Assembly (NCBI GenBank): GCA_900317375.1
Contig: ONGJ01000006.1
Location: 1-48,098 of the forward strand
Direction: 5' to 3'
DNA length: 48,098 nucleotides
Source of the DNA: an uncultured Eubacteriales bacterium
GTDB lineage: Bacteria > Bacillota > Clostridia > Oscillospirales > Oscillospiraceae
Below are positions 10,112 through 17,021 of the stretch, piece by piece. A model generated the notes under the pieces. It was not told the origin of the DNA and made no database searches. It saw only the letters and a program-made list of their open reading frames with translations. The position numbers and the translations under genes were made by a program. Each line of letters opens with the position of its first letter. Positions within the stretch are counted from its first letter, which is position 1.

Positions 10112-10141
10112 ACCGCCTGCGCTGTTTTCACTACCGCTTAG
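10112..10141 (+). promoter_or_regulatory. Predicted LytTR operator upstream of the TIR operon
   Basis: Two 9-bp direct repeats, ACCGCCTGC (10112-10120) and ACCGCTTAG (10133-10141), are separated by 12 bp. They end 10 bp before the -35 box. The same repeats, spacer and distance occur upstream of the LytTR operon (16580-16609). LytTR proteins are known to bind 9-bp direct repeats with about 12 bp between them; the right repeat matches the published LytTR consensus at 8 of 9 positions. Confidence 0.75.
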
Positions 10142-10151
10142 GCCGAATGGC

Positions 10152-10180
10152 TTGCAACACATCCGGCTTCCATGTACAAT
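10152..10180 (+). promoter_or_regulatory. Promoter of the TIR operon
   Basis: TTGCAA (10152-10157), a 17-bp spacer and TACAAT (10175-10180). Transcription would begin near 10187, about 45 nt before the small gene at 10233. Confidence 0.75.
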
Positions 10181-10232
10181 CAGATTCACATGAACCCGGA
10201 CACCGGAGTCACGAGGAATCAGGAGGGCACGC

Positions 10233-10412
10233 ATGTGGATTCCCTTCTTCCGGGGCTTCATACTCACGGGCGTTATGAATGTCCTGTCTCCAAAGGAGAG
10301 CCGCTTCCTCTATCCGCTTCCCGCCAGACCAAACCGGCTTCTGCCGGCAGCAGCCGTCATTCTGATCCCGGCCGATATCTTTCTGTTCGGCCCGGGAATC
10401 TGTTATCCCTGA
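10233..10412 (+). CDS. Small hydrophobic protein of 59 residues, first gene of the TIR operon
   Basis: The gene has AGGAGG 6 nt before its ATG, the best ribosome site in the region. It sits at the expected distance from the LytTR-type promoter. The product starts MWIPFFRGFIL and has two hydrophobic stretches (about 5-18 and 37-56) separated by a basic, Pro-rich segment, so it is probably membrane-bound. No Cys-rich or leader motif is seen and I recognise no family. It ends 36 nt before the TIR gene. If it were not a gene the TIR message would carry a leader of about 260 nt. Confidence 0.5.
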   Translation: MWIPFFRGFILTGVMNVLSPKESRFLYPLPARPNRLLPAAAVILIPADIFLFGPGICYP

Positions 10413-10448
10413 ACGGGACAACACGCAGCAGCAAGAGAAAGGAAACCC

Positions 10449-13103
10449 ATGAACCGGACAGACATATACCCTTCCGGAACACCGGCAGAGAACGCCTATA
10501 CCTATTTTGCCTTTATCAGCTATAAGAGCGCGGACGAAAAATGGGCGCGCTGGCTCAAGCGGAATCTTCAGCGCTACCGCTTGCCGGTCGGAACGCAAAG
10601 AAAGCATCCCCATGTACAGAAACGCTGCAGCCCGGTCTTCCTGGACAAGACCAATCTGACGCCGGGCCTGCTGGACAGCGGCCTCGCGGAAGAGGTGCAG
10701 GCGGCCCGGTACCTGATCGTGATCTGCTCCAGGAAAGCGGCGGAGAATTCCAGGTATCTGGACGATGAGCTGCGCTATTTTCTGGAGGGCAGCGGCGATC
10801 TCAGCCGCGTCATTCCCTTCATCGTGGACGAGAGCCGAAACCCGGCGGAGGAGTGCTTCCCCGCCTACCTGGCGGAGCTGAGCAGGAAAAAGAACATCGC
10901 GGGCGTCAGCATCTATGACGACGGGCCGCGCAGTGCCCTCCTGCGCGTCATTGCGGCCATGCTGGGCATCAAGCGCGAGGAACTGGAAAGCGACGACAGG
11001 CGGCGCAGAAGAAGACATCGCCTGATCGCCGCGGGGCTGGCACTCATTCTGCTTGCCGGCAGCGCGGTATGCTGGGACTACTTCCGGGTGAAAACGGCGT
11101 ACTATACGGATTATACCGAGGTATACGGCGCTCCGAAGGGACTCGGGGAGCTGAAAAAAGCGGATCTGAAGGGCATGAACGCCCATGTCGCATTGGTTTC
11201 CAGCCGCGGAAAAGTCCGCGAACTGCGGATTGAGAATTCCGCGGGAAGGCTTGTCTCGCGGGAGAACACGGGCAGCCCGGGTCCCTTTTCGAAAGCGGAA
11301 TATGAATACGCGGGGGAAAAGCTGGCCAGCGTCAGCCAGTACAGCGAAAACGGACATCTGACCTGCGAACTGCATTATATCAGCCCGAACACCATCGACC
11401 TGGTGCGGAACCCGGAGGCGGAGGAGGGCAATGTGTTCTCCGCGGCGGCGCCTCTGCCGTCGCACAGCACCGGCGCGATTCCGGGCGACGGGAAGGGCGA
11501 AAACTACAAAAGTAAAGTCATTCGATATCTCGTGATATACGATGCTTCCGGGTTTACGGAGGAGATCCGCTACTGCGCGGACGCGTATAACCATTTTGCC
11601 GCGGATGCGGACGGGATCAGCGGGATCCGCTATGAACGGGATGAGCAGGGCCGGGTCACTCGACTGAACTGGCTCAGCTTTACCGCATCTGAGAGCAGAG
11701 ACGCGGGAAAAGCGGAAAACTACGAGGTGATCGGAAAGCGCGGCGGCGAAGCGGGAAGGGCATATCTGTATGACGGCAGCGGCGACTGTACCGAGCTGCA
11801 TATCCTGGACGCGGAGGGACAGCCGATCACGGACGAAGCGTACGGAGCGGTTACGGTTTATCAGTATGAAAACCACAACGAGCTTCGAAGGACCTGCCGT
11901 GACGCCGAGGGCGGACTGTTTCTGAATGAAGAGGGGTATGCGGTAAGGGAGTCCCGGTATGACGACCGGGGAAACCGGATACGGGTCAGCTGTTTCGGCA
12001 CGGAGGGTGAGCCGGTTCTCTGTGCGGAAGGCTATGCCGCCGAGGAAACGGAATTTGATGAGCAGGGGAATCCGATCATGGTCCGTTATTTCGGCACGAA
12101 GGGCGAACCGGTTCTGAGTGTCAGCGGCTATGCCGGCTATCGCTGCAGCTATGACGGAGACGGTAATCAGACCGGTGTGGATTACTTCGGCACGGAGGGC
12201 GAGCCTGTGCTGAGCACGGACGGCTATGCCGGATGGTATGCCGCCTATGACGCGCGGGGAAACCGGGTCAGGGCCGGCTACCGGGGGACGGACGGCGAGG
12301 CGATTCTCAGCCGGGAAGGCTATGCCGGCTGGGAGGCCGAATACAACGGGCACGGAAACGAAGTCAGGGTTGCGTACTTCGGCACGGAGGGCGAGCCTGC
12401 TGCCAATATCGACGGCTATGCGGGATGGGAGGCGGCCTTTGACGAGCGCGGCAACGAGGTGAAGGTCCGCTTTTTCGGCACGGACGGCGGGCCTGTGCTG
12501 CAGGCCTACGGCATTGCCGGCTACGAAGCCGCCTACGACGAGCGCGGGAACCGGATAAAAGTCAGCTATTTTGGGACCGAAGGAGAGCCTGTTTTCATTG
12601 TGTTCGGCTATGCCGGTTTTGAACGCGTGTATGACGGGCAGGGGAACGAAATCCGCTGCAGCTTCTTCGACACGGACGGGGAACCCGTCCTGGAGCAGCA
12701 CGGTACGGCCGGATGGGAAGCTTTATACGACGCGCGCGGCCGCGAGATCCGGCGAAGCTATTTCGGGACTTCCGGAGAGCCCGTTCTGTACGGGGACGAC
12801 CGCTATACGGGGCACGCGTCCGTGTACGATGAGCGCGGCAACGAGATCCGGCGCAGCTATTTCGGCCCGGACGGGGAGCCTGTTCTGGTGAATAACGGAT
12901 ACTGCGGATGGGAGTCCGTTTTTGATGAGCGCGGGAATGAAATCCGCTGCAGCTTCTTTGGTACGGAGGGGGAGCCTGTTCTTCACGCGAAGGGCTATGC
13001 GGGCTGGAATTCCGTCTGGGACGATTACGGACATGAAATCGAGCGATGTTATTTCGGCCTGGAGGGTGAGCCGCTCTCCATCAATCAGGAAATGAAAGAA
13101 TGA
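10449..13103 (+). CDS. TIR-domain transmembrane protein with twelve 32-residue extracellular repeats
   Basis: An 884-residue receptor-like protein. Residues about 18-160 form a TIR-like domain (YFAFISYKSADEKWARWL at the start). Glu107 in SRYLDDELRYF lies where NADase TIR domains carry their catalytic Glu. The run RRRRRRH (184-190) precedes one membrane helix (about 191-209), which predicts TIR inside and the rest outside. Residues 210-495 are unrecognised. Residues 496-880 are twelve tandem repeats of about 32 residues with the pattern GYAGWEA.YDERGNEIR.SYFGTEGEPVL, related to YD/RHS-type repeats. It is followed 16 bp later by a secreted protein gene. Whether the TIR cleaves NAD or only signals is unknown. 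Confidence 0.8.
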   Translation: MNRTDIYPSGTPAENAYTYFAFISYKSADEKWARWLKRNLQRYRLPVGTQRKHPHVQKRCSPVFLDKTNLTPGLLDSGLAEEVQAARYLIVICSRKAAENSRYLDDELRYFLEGSGDLSRVIPFIVDESRNPAEECFPAYLAELSRKKNIAGVSIYDDGPRSALLRVIAAMLGIKREELESDDRRRRRRHRLIAAGLALILLAGSAVCWDYFRVKTAYYTDYTEVYGAPKGLGELKKADLKGMNAHVALVSSRGKVRELRIENSAGRLVSRENTGSPGPFSKAEYEYAGEKLASVSQYSENGHLTCELHYISPNTIDLVRNPEAEEGNVFSAAAPLPSHSTGAIPGDGKGENYKSKVIRYLVIYDASGFTEEIRYCADAYNHFAADADGISGIRYERDEQGRVTRLNWLSFTASESRDAGKAENYEVIGKRGGEAGRAYLYDGSGDCTELHILDAEGQPITDEAYGAVTVYQYENHNELRRTCRDAEGGLFLNEEGYAVRESRYDDRGNRIRVSCFGTEGEPVLCAEGYAAEETEFDEQGNPIMVRYFGTKGEPVLSVSGYAGYRCSYDGDGNQTGVDYFGTEGEPVLSTDGYAGWYAAYDARGNRVRAGYRGTDGEAILSREGYAGWEAEYNGHGNEVRVAYFGTEGEPAANIDGYAGWEAAFDERGNEVKVRFFGTDGGPVLQAYGIAGYEAAYDERGNRIKVSYFGTEGEPVFIVFGYAGFERVYDGQGNEIRCSFFDTDGEPVLEQHGTAGWEALYDARGREIRRSYFGTSGEPVLYGDDRYTGHASVYDERGNEIRRSYFGPDGEPVLVNNGYCGWESVFDERGNEIRCSFFGTEGEPVLHAKGYAGWNSVWDDYGHEIERCYFGLEGEPLSINQEMKE
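11934..13088 (+). repeat. Twelve tandem 96-bp coding repeats
   Basis: Twelve in-frame units of 96 bp (unit nine has one extra codon) encode the extracellular repeats of the TIR protein. Unit landmarks are GYAGW, YDERGN and FGTEGEPVL. DNA copies have diverged but keep blocks such as those around TTCGGCACGGAGGG. Such arrays can change copy number by recombination. Confidence 0.9.
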
Positions 13104-13119
13104 AAGTGAGATGTTCAAC

Positions 13120-14553
13120 ATGAAAAAAGCGCTTACACTCATGCTGGCGGTCTGCATCTGCCTGCTGTTGGCCGCTCCGGCCTCCGCGGCGGCCGACAGC
13201 TCCCCCTTTGCAGGAGACTGGAAGTTCTATGCCCAGGAAGGCGACGCCCCGATGAGCCATGAAGAGATCCTTGCCATGGCGGCAATGGGCCTTGATATGA
13301 CAAGCGGACTGATTACCTCGTTCCGCGGCGACGGGACCATGACCATGAATGTCTTCGGCGAGAGGGTCGACGGCACCTGGACGGACAGCGGCGACGGCAG
13401 CGGTTTCTTCACCGTGGAGGGCGAAACCTATCCCATGAGCGTGCGTGACGGCTTCCTGCGGATGGACATGGTGACCGCCATCGGCGTGTTTGAGCCCTCT
13501 GATATGAGCGCCGAGAATTCAACGGCCGGTTTTCCGCCGCTGCTGGAGGAGTATGCCAATCAGATTGAACAGCAGGTTGAGACGGTCATGCCGAAAGAGG
13601 AGACCGTTGTTTCTCCCCTGATCGGCGAATGGCGCTTCTACTCCATGGAAAGCGGCGATCCTGACCGGAATATCCCGCACGCTGCACTGCCGGGACTGAG
13701 AGACGAAGGACGTGACTACGCGGGCAAATATACCCTTACCTTCATGGACGATGGGTGGTTTAAGTTCTGCAATTTCTATGGATTCGAACAGAACAACTGG
13801 ACGGACGGCAAAGACGGCGCGGTTACCATTGATGCCGACGGGAAGTCCTGGGACTGCACGATTGAGGATGGCCTTCTGGTGCTTCGCAGCGGGGACAACG
13901 TCATGCGCTATGAAAGGACCGTTCCCATCGGGTCGACCGGATACTATGTCGCGGTTCCTGCGGACTATGTTCCGGGTGAGGTCACCGAAGAGGACCGGCG
14001 GGATGACATGGTCGCCTATTACCGCAGCGATAAGCACCTGATGGACTTTGATATCTATCAGTTTGCGAAAGATGGCCGGATCCTGGAAGAGTACGCGGAG
14101 AAAGAGGCAAAGGAATTCGGAGCAGACTGGATCGACACCGTCGTATTCAACGGCATACCCCTCGTGTTCTATATTTCCCAGGAACAGTATGACGGCGCCG
14201 AATACCGGGTCGCGAACTTCCTGTTCGATGCCGGAAACGACTTCGGCGAGATCGTTTTCTGGCTGGATGGACCGAACGATGGAGAAGAGGCTGCGGAGCT
14301 GACCGAACAGATTCTCTCCAGCATTTTCTACAGGAAGCCGGATCCGGAAGATGTAAACGGCATGATCGTGATGAAACTGGAAGGGGAGTATTTTCCCGAC
14401 CGCTATCAGGTCCTGGGGGAGGACGGCGAAATGTATGAGGGCGAGTATCTGTTCGGCTTTGAGGATTTGGAGCCGGGAACCGCGGTGATCCTTTCCTGGC
14501 GGAACGGAAAGTGGTCCATCGAACTGGAAGACCCCTGGGCTGCGTTTGGTTAA
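13120..14553 (+). CDS. Secreted protein with two lipocalin-like repeats and a C-terminal domain
   Basis: A 477-residue exported protein: signal peptide 1-23 (cleavage after APASA), then two similar domains, about 28-125 starting PFAGDWKFYAQE and about 163-265 starting PLIGEWRFYSME. These resemble the small beta-barrel, lipocalin-like domains common in Clostridial secreted proteins. Residues about 275-415 form a third domain, and an acidic tail follows. No catalytic motif is visible. The start at 13120 fits the GTGAG ribosome site 9 nt upstream better than the ATG at 13111. It is 16 bp after the TIR gene, so it shares the operon and may be a ligand or partner of the repeat region; this is inference. 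Confidence 0.8.
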   Translation: MKKALTLMLAVCICLLLAAPASAAADSSPFAGDWKFYAQEGDAPMSHEEILAMAAMGLDMTSGLITSFRGDGTMTMNVFGERVDGTWTDSGDGSGFFTVEGETYPMSVRDGFLRMDMVTAIGVFEPSDMSAENSTAGFPPLLEEYANQIEQQVETVMPKEETVVSPLIGEWRFYSMESGDPDRNIPHAALPGLRDEGRDYAGKYTLTFMDDGWFKFCNFYGFEQNNWTDGKDGAVTIDADGKSWDCTIEDGLLVLRSGDNVMRYERTVPIGSTGYYVAVPADYVPGEVTEEDRRDDMVAYYRSDKHLMDFDIYQFAKDGRILEEYAEKEAKEFGADWIDTVVFNGIPLVFYISQEQYDGAEYRVANFLFDAGNDFGEIVFWLDGPNDGEEAAELTEQILSSIFYRKPDPEDVNGMIVMKLEGEYFPDRYQVLGEDGEMYEGEYLFGFEDLEPGTAVILSWRNGKWSIELEDPWAAFG

Positions 14554-14630
14554 GAACCGGAAGGAAAGAAGAACAGGTCAGTATCATGCAGCCTCCGGGC
14601 TGAGCGAAAAAACGGAAATACAAGCACAGC

Positions 14631-14660
14631 AAAGCCGCCGGCAAACCTGCCGGCGGCTTT
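14631..14660. terminator. Bidirectional hairpin between the two LytTR-controlled operons
   Basis: A perfect 12-bp stem AAAGCCGCCGGC/GCCGGCGGCTTT with a 6-nt loop lies between the converging genes at 14553 and 14687. U-tracts are only TTT on each side, but the position fits a shared terminator. Confidence 0.7.
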
Positions 14661-14686
14661 GAAACATGATCATGATTTCCTTTGTG

Positions 14687-14890
14687 TTATCTGTCCTCTT
14701 CCTGCTTCGCGGGCTTTGTTTCTTCGGTTTCCTTTGCTTTGTTCTTCTCCATGCCCGAGAGGACGGCCATGGCGCCGCCGGCCACGACGAAAATGAGCCA
14801 GCTGTGCTGGAACGTGTCCAACCAGCCCCAGATAAAGAAAATAACCAGGGCGACCGTCGGGATAATTCTCATCCACATTTTTGTATCCAT
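14687..14890 (-). CDS. Small two-helix membrane protein, 67 residues
   Basis: Two hydrophobic helices (about 8-24 and 30-46) and a strongly charged Lys/Glu tail (49-67). AAAGGAGTAA about 7 nt upstream supports the start. It is last in the LytTR operon, 122 bp after the GG-leader peptide gene, with a small hairpin (14929-14945) between them. No family recognised. Small membrane proteins beside bacteriocin-like peptides often give immunity or aid export, which is only a suggestion here. Confidence 0.75.
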   Translation of the reverse strand: MDTKMWMRIIPTVALVIFFIWGWLDTFQHSWLIFVVAGGAMAVLSGMEKNKAKETEETKPAKQEEDR

Positions 14891-14928
14891 AAGCAGTTAC
14901 TCCTTTTGTTCTTGCCGACCGGCATACG

Positions 14929-14945
14929 ATGCCGGGCTTCGATTT
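14929..14945 (-). other. Small intercistronic hairpin
   Basis: CCGGCAT/ATGCCGG with a 3-nt loop between the GG-leader peptide gene and the small membrane protein gene. There is no T-run, so mRNA processing or translation tuning is likelier than termination. Confidence 0.4.
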
Positions 14946-15012
14946 CTGTTAATCTCTTCTGGCGGCAGCGGTTCCCGGAAAGACGCCGTCACAGAAAAAT
15001 CTCATCTGTCCC

Positions 15013-15333
15013 TTATTGGACAAGGGGCCACCAGGAGGGGTACTGGATGCCGGGATAATGCGCGGCCTCCATGGCACGGATGATCTCGATGGTTTCGGCG
15101 TCGGAGAAATACTGATCCATGCCGCACTTCGGGCAGGTCCAGAAGGGATCACCGTAGGGGCTGTTGATCCTGTTCATGGCAACGCTGCCGGTGCAGCAGG
15201 GGCAAGTGGCCTCATCGGCGCCGCCGACACCGCCGGAGACCTGTGCAGCGTCCTCGTCCGAGAGAGGTGTGATGCCCTCATCCATCTTTGCCTTGTACTG
15301 CTTGAGAAGGTCTGTGAATTTGTTGTTTTCCAT
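15013..15333 (-). CDS. Double-glycine leader peptide with zinc-ribbon-like core, 106 residues
   Basis: The N-terminal 35 residues end in PLSDEDAAQVSGG, the classic double-glycine leader pattern (LSxxELxxVxGG) cleaved by C39-type peptidase/ABC exporters. The remainder has CPCC (44-47) and CPKC (67-70), spaced like a zinc ribbon, then an acidic helix and a Trp/Pro-rich end. AAGGAGA lies 7 nt before the start. The gene follows LytTR and DUF3021 in one operon. A relative with the same leader and a shorter zinc-ribbon core is at 24674-24859. No exporter with a C39 domain is in the window. It could be a peptide signal, a bacteriocin or a RiPP precursor. Confidence 0.75.
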   Translation of the reverse strand: MENNKFTDLLKQYKAKMDEGITPLSDEDAAQVSGGVGGADEATCPCCTGSVAMNRINSPYGDPFWTCPKCGMDQYFSDAETIEIIRAMEAAHYPGIQYPSWWPLVQ

Positions 15334-15372
15334 GTTCGTTCTCCTTCGGTTTTGATTTTGTATGTTGACAGA

Positions 15373-15834
15373 TTAAGATTCTGTTCCGTCCGTATGCGAT
15401 GTTTCCCGATTGGCGTTCAGCTCATTCAGTTCTCTGACCTCGGCCCTGTACCGCAGGAACATGATCAGCCAGATCAGAAAGAAGCCGACCGTCTGCACAC
15501 CCGTCATGATCAAAAGCTCGACCGGTTTTGTCACCCAGCCCAGAAAGAGTGCCAGGGGAGGAAAGCAGACGACGACGATCAGATAGTGCAGGAAAGTTGC
15601 TTTCAAAAGGGACCAGTTCTCAATTTCATAGAACGCCGTGCCGCCCATGCAGAGAAAGCCGAAAATACCGGACAGGAAAAGGTCCAGCGTCAGTGCGCCT
15701 GCCGCGCTGCCGACGCGCTGGACCAACAGGTCTGAGACAAGCCTGTCGTTCCCGGTGGCCCAGGAGATAACGAGCGAGACCAGAATGCCGAGAGGAAAGC
15801 CGATTGCCCCTCTCCGCAGAAATTTCATCAGCAT
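15373..15834 (-). CDS. DUF3021 family membrane protein
   Basis: A 153-residue protein with four hydrophobic segments (about 8-27, 45-65, 77-98 and 106-127) and a hydrophilic tail, as in DUF3021. It overlaps the LytTR gene: ATG codons at 15834 and 15828 are both in frame, and AAGGGG is about 6 nt before the first. In Streptococcus and other Firmicutes, membrane proteins encoded beside a lone LytTR protein hold the regulator inactive (LytTR regulatory systems such as HdrRM and BrsRM). By analogy this is the likely membrane antagonist or sensor. Confidence 0.85.
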   Translation of the reverse strand: MLMKFLRRGAIGFPLGILVSLVISWATGNDRLVSDLLVQRVGSAAGALTLDLFLSGIFGFLCMGGTAFYEIENWSLLKATFLHYLIVVVCFPPLALFLGWVTKPVELLIMTGVQTVGFFLIWLIMFLRYRAEVRELNELNANRETSHTDGTES

Positions 15835-16298
15835 GCCGAAGCCCCCTTTCCCTTCAGACGACGGCGGATTTCCGGAATGCAGCGGCGGGAAGCCCAGGTC
15901 TCCATCCCGCCCTCCAGCTCAAGTCGCAGGGTGCCGCTGATGGTGAAGTCGTAGCGTGCGACCTTGCGCAGGTTCACAATCTCATAGCGGGATATTCGAA
16001 CGAAGCAACGGCTGTCGAGCTGCTCTTCCAGACTCTGCAGGGTCCGGCGCGAGAGCCAGCAGCCGTCCGCGGTCAAAATACGGACGGATTTGCCGTCCAC
16101 CGAAGCCAGGATGATCTCGGACTCTGCCAACGTTTTCAAATTGCCCCTGCCGTCCAGAACCGTCAGGGTATGACCGCTCCCGCCGGCGATTCTCTCCATC
16201 AGGGCGGCGACCTCGGCGTCCTGTTCGGAGGCACGCACCGTGATCTCAATACCGGATAGTGCAGAGTCCGGCTCAAAGCGAATACGGATGTTCTTCAT
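15828..16298 (-). CDS. LytTR-domain transcriptional regulator
   Basis: A 156-residue protein without receiver domain. Residues about 60-150 form a LytTR DNA-binding domain, with the family core FVRISRYEIVNLRKV (about 103-117). Residues 1-55 form a small N-terminal domain. It directly follows the stop codon of the Cys-rich gene (TAAATG) and overlaps DUF3021, so it is tightly coupled. Predicted LytTR sites precede its own operon (16580-16609) and the TIR operon (10112-10141), so it probably autoregulates and controls both. Confidence 0.88.
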   Translation of the reverse strand: MKNIRIRFEPDSALSGIEITVRASEQDAEVAALMERIAGGSGHTLTVLDGRGNLKTLAESEIILASVDGKSVRILTADGCWLSRRTLQSLEEQLDSRCFVRISRYEIVNLRKVARYDFTISGTLRLELEGGMETWASRRCIPEIRRRLKGKGASAC

Positions 16299-16499
16299 TT
16301 ATGCCGCACCGCCTTTCCGCATGACGGGATGGATGCAGCTGCCGTCCGTTATGCTGCGATAGCGGCAGTCTGTACATCCGGGCGCCGTTCGATATTTCAG
16401 CTCGCACCAGACCTGGTGAGGCCACCCGGTTTTCGTACGGCATACCCGGCAGCTGTAGAGCGGACAGCCGCTGCGGATGATGCCCTCTGTCTCGTTCAT
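16299..16499 (-). CDS. Cysteine-rich small protein, 66 residues, first gene of the LytTR operon
   Basis: A strong ribosome site (AGGAGG 6 nt upstream) and a promoter at 16541-16569 support this as a real gene. It has seven Cys residues, in CPLYSCRVC, WC, GCTDC and SC, plus several His and Arg, which suggests metal binding. There is no signal peptide or hydrophobic segment. It ends exactly where LytTR begins, so translation is coupled. No family recognised; it might be a redox or metal-sensing cofactor of the regulator. Confidence 0.65.
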   Translation of the reverse strand: MNETEGIIRSGCPLYSCRVCRTKTGWPHQVWCELKYRTAPGCTDCRYRSITDGSCIHPVMRKGGAA

Positions 16500-16540
16500 G
16501 ACGCCCTCCTGCCTGAAACGCTCGTAATCCTCTGGAACGA

Positions 16541-16569
16541 ATCATACTGAAGAAATCGGCCGAGTGCAA
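16541..16569 (-). promoter_or_regulatory. Promoter of the LytTR operon
   Basis: On the minus strand TTGCAC (16564-16569), a 17-bp spacer and TATGAT (16541-16546), about 40 bp before the first start codon at 16499. Box spacing and the distance to the direct repeats match the TIR promoter. Confidence 0.75.
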
Positions 16570-16579
16570 GCGAATTTCC

Positions 16580-16609
16580 CTAAGCGGTCGTTTTTTCAGC
16601 GCAAGCGGT
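16580..16609 (-). promoter_or_regulatory. Predicted LytTR operator upstream of the LytTR operon
   Basis: Read on the minus strand, ACCGCTTGC (16601-16609) and ACCGCTTAG (16580-16588) are separated by 12 bp and end 10 bp before the -35 box. Layout and bases match 10112-10141: TGCGCTG follows the left ACCGCY block in both, and ACCGCTTAGG is identical. Confidence 0.75.
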
Positions 16610-16753: not shown

Positions 16754-16900
16754 TCAGTCTTCCGCCTCCAGAAACTGCACATCGGCGTCGCTCAGGGGGC
16801 TTGCCGCCGCGCGGATATTCATCTGCAGCCGCTCGGGAGAGGTCGTGCTGACGACGGCACCTCCCTCTGCTGCGGCAAATAACATGGATCTGATGAAGAC
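16754..16900 (-). pseudogene. 3' remnant of an aldo/keto reductase-like gene
   Basis: A 48-codon open segment ends in a stop at 16754 and is closed upstream by an in-frame stop at 16901-16903. It encodes GGAVVSTTSPERLQMNIRAA followed by SPLSDADVQFLEA. This looks like the C-terminal end of aldo/keto reductases (a short strand, the SxxPERLxxN helix and the final LSDxDxxFLE helix). The catalytic barrel is missing. The position between a methyltransferase of different base composition and the LytTR locus suggests deletion during gene acquisition. Confidence 0.5.
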
Positions 16901-16992: not shown

Positions 16993-17021
16993 TTGACAGG
17001 CGGCCTATCGTTCATTATAAT
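16993..17021 (+). promoter_or_regulatory. Consensus promoter of the methyltransferase gene
   Basis: TTGACA (16993-16998), exactly 17 bp, then TATAAT (17016-17021): a perfect sigma-A consensus, the strongest promoter in the window. Confidence 0.88.

Follow-up and report, generated by a model that had tools for sequence, protein, structure and literature searches.

Two converging operons in the window, which is the whole stretch of 48,098 nucleotides analysed here, are each headed by a pair of 9-bp direct repeats lying 12 bp apart and 10 bp before a -35 box, and these pairs are very probably the operators of one LytTR Regulatory System (LRS), in which the LytTR protein, released from a DUF3021 membrane protein, would activate both its own operon and the converging one (Table 1). 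The anatomy of the locus, the conservation of the operator, its exact spacing and the single LytTR gene argue for this reading. By analogy with the LRS of Streptococcus mutans, the DUF3021 protein would hold the small LytTR protein inactive at rest. A signal would then free the regulator, which would bind the tandem repeats (two copies of the consensus ACCGYTTRTGCC, spaced by two helical turns) and, bound just upstream of the -35 box, would activate both promoters. Promoter 2 would drive the co-transcription of cysP66 and the genes for LytTR, DUF3021, a GG-leader peptide and smp67, thereby giving positive feedback, as LytTR lies inside this operon, while promoter 1 would drive the converging operon, whose last gene encodes a secreted lipocalin-like protein.

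Table 1. Features of the two converging operons (positions in the window; aa, amino acids)
Feature	Position	Strand	Remarks
Operator 1	10112..10141	+	direct repeats 10112-10120 and 10133-10141
Promoter 1	10152..10180	+	-35 TTGCAA 10152-10157; -10 TACAAT 10175-10180
p59, apparent remnant (59 C-terminal residues) of an HExxH membrane-protein family	10233..10412	+	
TIR protein, 884 aa	10449..13103	+	N-terminal TIR_2 domain with a single predicted span and outer repeats (topology and span as read from the sequence)
Secreted lipocalin-like protein, 480 aa	13111..14553	+	PF13648 E 5e-4, just under cut-off
Perfect 14-bp inverted repeat, possible two-way terminator	14630..14661		weak T-runs
smp67, small membrane protein	14687..14890	-	
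GG-leader zinc-ribbon peptide, 106 aa	15013..15333	-	
DUF3021 membrane protein, predicted inhibitor	15373..15834	-	PF11457 87.8 bits, above Pfam cut-off
LytTR regulator, 156 aa	15828..16298	-	PF04397 63 bits, above Pfam cut-off
cysP66, 66 residues, eight invariant Cys/His	16299..16499	-	first gene of the LytTR operon
Promoter 2	16541..16569	-	-35 TTGCAC 16569-16564; -10 TATGAT 16546-16541
Operator 2	16580..16609	-	direct repeats 16609-16601 and 16588-16580

The plus strand at 10112-10180 reads ACCGCCTGC-N12-ACCGCTTAG-N10-TTGCAA-N17-TACAAT, and the minus strand at 16609-16541 reads ACCGCTTGC-N12-ACCGCTTAG-N10-TTGCAC-N17-TATGAT; the common layout that an earlier sequence-only reading had claimed for both operon heads is thus present with the positions, strands and spacings it gave. 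Its estimate of about 33 identical bases in 46 was reproduced exactly by an ungapped comparison (33/46), the next best place in the window reaching 26/46. Such likeness could also stem from a recent duplication of a promoter segment, without selection by any regulator, and the nearest relative, G015, indeed has a third copy of its own operator segment that lacks a -35 box (L052:16684, minus strand, 3.3 kb from the functional-looking one). However, the identity lies in the repeats, their 3' flanks and the -35 box, the spacers being different, and the same positions are fixed in 74 distinct sites from diverged loci (the window, L056 and the best 80 of 97 LytTR loci described below). I therefore reject duplication, a very improbable cause of the similarity.

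When up to three mismatches are allowed, the repeat-promoter pattern matches the window twice, both times exactly, against a mean of 0.12 in 100 shuffles, although this test is moderate, with two of the 100 shuffles also giving two matches. A generic sigma-70 scan lists promoter 1 (9/12) and lacks promoter 2, whose -35 box TTGCAC is weak (3/6 consensus fit), and its total of four sites is not above the 2.7 expected by chance. In the draft genome from which the window comes (G000; 3,084,238 bp in 161 contigs, 94.75% complete), the pattern extended to TTG finds the two window places exactly and one more at three mismatches, while the repeat pair without TTG finds three further places on other contigs, with 1, 2 and 2 mismatches. 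The comparative evidence from relatives is far stronger than these window-shuffle, own-genome and sigma-70 tests. Beyond promoter 2, a short ORF at 16754-16885 (minus strand) resembles aldo/keto reductases at their C-terminal end (below the PF00248 cut-off, E 0.0059) and is likely a gene remnant near the LRS promoter; a perfect sigma-70 consensus, TTGACA-17-TATAAT, is found at 16993-17021 (plus strand) just before a PF04072 (leucine carboxyl methyltransferase) gene.

Judged by its anatomy, the locus is a LytTR Regulatory System, as in S. mutans. The text of PMC6193735 describes these systems (HdrRM, BrsRM and others) as a LytTR regulator with a membrane inhibitor, often DUF3021 or DUF2154, showing positive autoregulation; their 9-bp repeats are in most cases separated by 12 bp and show a strong preference for lying 10 bp before the -35 box, an example from its Table 3 being ACCGCTTGT-12-ACCGCTTAT followed by 10 bp. 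The LytTR protein of the window likewise has PF04397 alone (residues 57-148) and lacks a receiver domain, and the DUF3021 ORF overlaps it by 7 nt, an arrangement that recurs in relatives, with DUF3021 directly downstream of LytTR in 78 of the best 80 of 97 loci. The spacing of the repeats and the -35 box is exact, the repeat letters are nearly those of Table 3, and repeats are found at other target promoters as well, as in the described systems. In contrast to these, a conserved Cys/His-rich gene precedes LytTR here, a second, converging operon is present, and the outputs are mostly surface or secreted proteins, with a GG-leader zinc-ribbon peptide and, in G000, a TIR protein.

The LytTR protein could also be a repressor at these promoters, as its role is predicted and the present data are compatible with repression. 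However, the repeats are located upstream of the -35 box, which is the position of an activator, and the S. mutans LRS regulators covered in PMC6193735 activate through such repeats, so that repression seems very improbable.

A contig scan with a LytTR alignment gave 97 relatives, the best 80 of which were used for all locus counts; these are mainly from rumen and gut Clostridia, some being labelled Coriobacteriaceae, Eggerthellaceae or Atopobiaceae, and at least 8 appear to be contigs of the genus genomes discussed below. (In the LytTR alignment A1, the protein of G087 was omitted, as its match at L058:9693-10145 has one in-frame TAG, and that of G080 was cut at a stop.) In the 700 bp that precede LytTR, or as much of them as a short contig offers, and with TTG required exactly at N10, a site is observed in 21, 45 and 48 of the best 80 of 97 loci at 0, 1 and 2 mismatches, and on the opposite strand in 3, 5 and 6; the same regions gave no site when reversed, nor in 100 mononucleotide shuffles. 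The spacing is strict: at up to one mismatch a repeat period of 21 finds 45 of these 80 loci and periods 16-20 and 22-27 find none, and a gap of 10 bp from repeat to TTG finds 45, gaps of 4, 5, 8, 9 and 11-13 none, and gaps of 6, 7 and 14-17 one to five. In the logo of the 74 distinct sites the repeat is extended to the consensus given above, and a -10 box that is absent from the search pattern appears 17 bp after the -35 box (T83 A83 T67 A70 A50 T85, in %). The relatives thus support a working operator, to which LytTR is predicted to bind.

Thirty-five of the best 80 of 97 loci have no site at one mismatch within 700 bp, among them all 15 whose LytTR is less than 40% identical. At two mismatches, sites are present in 46/58 of these loci at 45% LytTR identity or more, in 2/7 at 40-45% and in 0/15 below 40%, from which it follows that either the operator letters change with the LytTR protein or the diverged systems differ. 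Similar repeat pairs without TTG at N10 are seen at L173:5377, L177:13438 and L184:10890, where LytTR is diverged; those of L173 and L184 are near the end of the DUF3021 gene.

The operator is not restricted to the front of LytTR. At two mismatches and with TTG at N10, the best 80 of 97 loci contain 73 sites, 48 within 700 bp before LytTR and 25 elsewhere, and 16 of the loci have two or more. All but one of the 25 (L135 being without such an ORF) precede an ORF of at least 50 aa with a Shine-Dalgarno start, 92-327 bp from the start of the site; some of the 25, as in L111 and L112, stand at the front of a unit that continues into LytTR. By reading of the proteins, 15 of the 24 ORFs encode secreted or surface proteins (in L109 the secreted protein was used, as the automatic pick was a short spurious frame), 4 encode small membrane proteins like smp67, and 5 are response-regulator/HPt-like, which suggests that surface and secreted proteins are the usual output of this LytTR-operator family. 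LRS operators upstream of response-regulator/HPt-like genes are found at L119:1302, L120:8467, L124:3481, L125:6613 and L127:8645, and in L127 the response regulator is followed by the cysP66 and LytTR genes, an arrangement that suggests a link between LRS and phosphorelay.

Among the 102 genomes of the genus, an operator pattern with relaxed letters, extended to TTG, was counted at up to one mismatch only, since at two mismatches it is hardly cleaner than its reversed control (22 matches versus 15 for the control in a run over 14 genomes). At up to one mismatch the reversed control has one match across all 102 genomes, and the operator is observed in 11/102, at 14 sites. LytTR is matched at E 1e-8 in 18 of the 102, closely (E <1e-40) in 10 including the window genome, and all 10 are among the 11 with an operator. 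In the eleventh, G031, the operator lies at a contig end and is followed by a cut-off cysP66, and all 14 sites thus belong to the locus studied here. With G031 counted as a failure, the co-occurrence of operator and close LytTR gives 5e-13 in Fisher's test, which is no strict probability, as the genomes are kin. In the 8 genomes where LytTR is matched more weakly, the operator is absent at up to one mismatch; two of them, G014 and G074, have two-mismatch sites upstream of their LytTR genes, a level at which the control is nearly as frequent. In G015 the LytTR operon is retained together with a secreted-protein operon that converges on it, and the repeat-promoter heads each of the two; the refuting case named in the sequence-only reading, loss of the repeat pair in relatives with both operons, was thus looked for and not found in this nearest relative.

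A strict window pattern without TTG had been discarded: at two mismatches it matched 21/61 genus genomes, mostly in a chance-like manner, the reversed control being similarly frequent, and among the relatives only the G015 site was at a LytTR locus. A pattern one base longer (period 22), acting as a negative control, matched 5/13 genomes and none at LRS sites.

Another LytTR-type response regulator might bind the sites, with the local LytTR having other targets, as G053 has four LytTR-domain proteins (PF04397), G005 three, and G091 and G082 two each (G090 has none). However, G000, G015, G077, G054, G087 and G080 show the local one alone and have the sites nonetheless, and on this ground I reject the alternative as very improbable. 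The earlier claim that a LytTR gene lies in one of the two operons is correct, and it is the sole PF04397 match in G000, where a second gene could be missing since the genome is a draft.

The operon behind promoter 1 is less uniform. Relatives of the secreted protein are located inside the LRS operon in G091, G082, G054, G087 and G080, whereas in G015 the gene follows a converging operator of its own. The first ORF, p59, had been taken for a peptide gene of its own, a view that I reject: it is the C-terminal piece of a family of HExxH membrane proteins of about 290 residues, aligning at 62.5% identity with residues 230-285 of a protein of 288 residues in L176 and resembling the ends of proteins in L164 and L178 as well. 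All five full-length relatives examined have the HExxH motif, which is missing from p59, as only the C-terminal end of the family is covered. They match no Pfam family over cut-off, and I take these polytopic proteins to be M50-like. As relatives in L134, L141 and L144 are found in gene runs downstream of LRS operators, p59, which has a ribosome site of its own and begins with a Met internal to the family sequence, looks like the remnant of a target gene.

The TIR protein has a TIR_2 domain (PF13676, 42.6 bits against a cut-off of 28) as in other bacterial TIR-domain proteins, from which it differs by the combination with one span and outer repeats. The TIR part is predicted to face the cytoplasm, since an Arg-rich stretch precedes the span, and its stretch SRYLDDEL resembles the glutamate region of TIR NADases. 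Residues 1-174 matched no PDB chain at E 0.01 in phmmer, and PADLOC gave no convincing defence match, the protein being weak against the SAVED-TIR model (E 0.0032).

The full TIR protein is matched in 11/102 genus genomes at E 1e-20, mostly through the TIR half alone, and orthologues extending over most or much of the outer repeats are present in G015 (two copies), G053 and G090. None of these four copies has an operator within 1.5 kb upstream (the orthologue in L066 is preceded, at about 0.7 kb, by a single weak match with 2 + 2 mismatches), none is near LRS genes, and G090 has no LytTR-domain match at all. (In G090 a GG-leader-like short ORF, ELENVSGG, is located at L194:2372-2635, about 3.4 kb upstream of the orthologue.) TIR is thus no conserved member of the regulon, as had been supposed, and its presence here is most likely due to a local capture of the TIR gene by the LytTR switch. 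The same observations, together with the G015 operator that is followed by the secreted protein with no TIR between, could also mean that control by the LRS extends to the LytTR operon and the secreted protein while TIR is a passenger inserted behind the promoter, without a functional tie, which I regard as a real possibility, albeit somewhat short of an even chance. However, the TIR gene is separated by 36 nt from p59 and by 7 nt from the secreted-protein ORF, with all three on the same strand in an operon-like manner, and the four weak plus-strand terminator-like matches between 10412 and 14553 are all inside genes and none in the gaps. As it sits between the promoter and the secreted-protein gene, the TIR gene has probably joined the LRS regulon in this species. 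No LytTR-controlled TIR was found in titles and abstract starts of the open-access literature. The proposed regulon of eight genes is accordingly upheld in that a shared operator/promoter heads both operons, but the membership of p59 and TIR has to be revised.

The link to the GG-leader peptide, also part of the earlier proposal, is real but narrow. The peptide occurs in 4/102 genus genomes (E 1e-5), every time in the LytTR operon, and L24, S25, D26, V32, G34, G35 and the four ribbon cysteines are invariant in the four homologues. Its export is possible given four matches to C39 (PF03412) in G000, all on contigs other than that of the window; of 11 genomes tested, 10 have C39 matches, some of these genomes having the peptide and others lacking it. 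The streptococcal bacteriocins controlled by HdrR and BrsR have GG leaders. A short exported-type peptide gene under LytTR-type repeats is common to both cases (PMC6193735 for the bacteriocin targets), whereas the peptide here is a zinc ribbon and its operon lacks an exporter gene. Between the operons, the inverted repeat at 14630-14661 folds at about -29 kcal/mol on either strand and could end both transcripts; a terminator scan listed 5-pair pieces on the minus strand and not the full 14-bp hairpin.

The first gene of the LytTR operon encodes a protein that may be the sensor of the LRS. A cysP66 profile found the gene in 42 of the best 80 of 97 loci besides the window and L056. On the LytTR strand, 38 of 39 distinct cases end 3-21 nt before LytTR (71 nt in L140), and in L117 it is on the other strand. 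Across 40 aligned members (alignment A5; identical sequences removed, fragment L147 omitted), no variation is seen at C12, C17, C20, H28, C32, C42, C45 and C55, and hardly any at H57. Of 295 genomes drawn from the order, 4 have cysP66, each beside LytTR-DUF3021, three directly before LytTR and one (L197) converging with it. No PDB sequence matched cysP66, its model (pLDDT 83.0, pTM 0.66, a fair model) had no Foldseek match at E 10, and against Pfam the 40 members gave three families with one or two weak matches each and no fitting family. No Cys-rich LRS component was found in titles and abstract starts of the open-access literature, and the main text of PMC6193735 has no occurrence of 'cystein'.

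cysP66 may bind a metal or an Fe-S cluster and sense the signal. Tentatively, and with more doubt than confidence, I propose it as a third, sensory component of a large LRS branch in gut and rumen Clostridia that would gate the release of LytTR by DUF3021 in this way, so that the switch would read metal, redox or oxidant stress and deploy surface proteins in response.

Compared with known LRS, three things are new: the Cys/His-rich gene, the outputs among surface proteins and the probable capture of TIR. In this branch the operator is precisely conserved, the output (surface or secreted proteins) is recognisable, and a strictly conserved Cys/His-rich protein that belongs to no named family is encoded directly before the regulator. 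Few of the signals behind LytTR Regulatory Systems have been identified, and cysP66 is a concrete candidate for the missing sensor. The window also provides a case, open to testing, in which a switch would have captured an unrelated gene and, should cysP66 be the sensor, an immune-like TIR receptor would be tied here to a metal, redox or oxidant stress signal.
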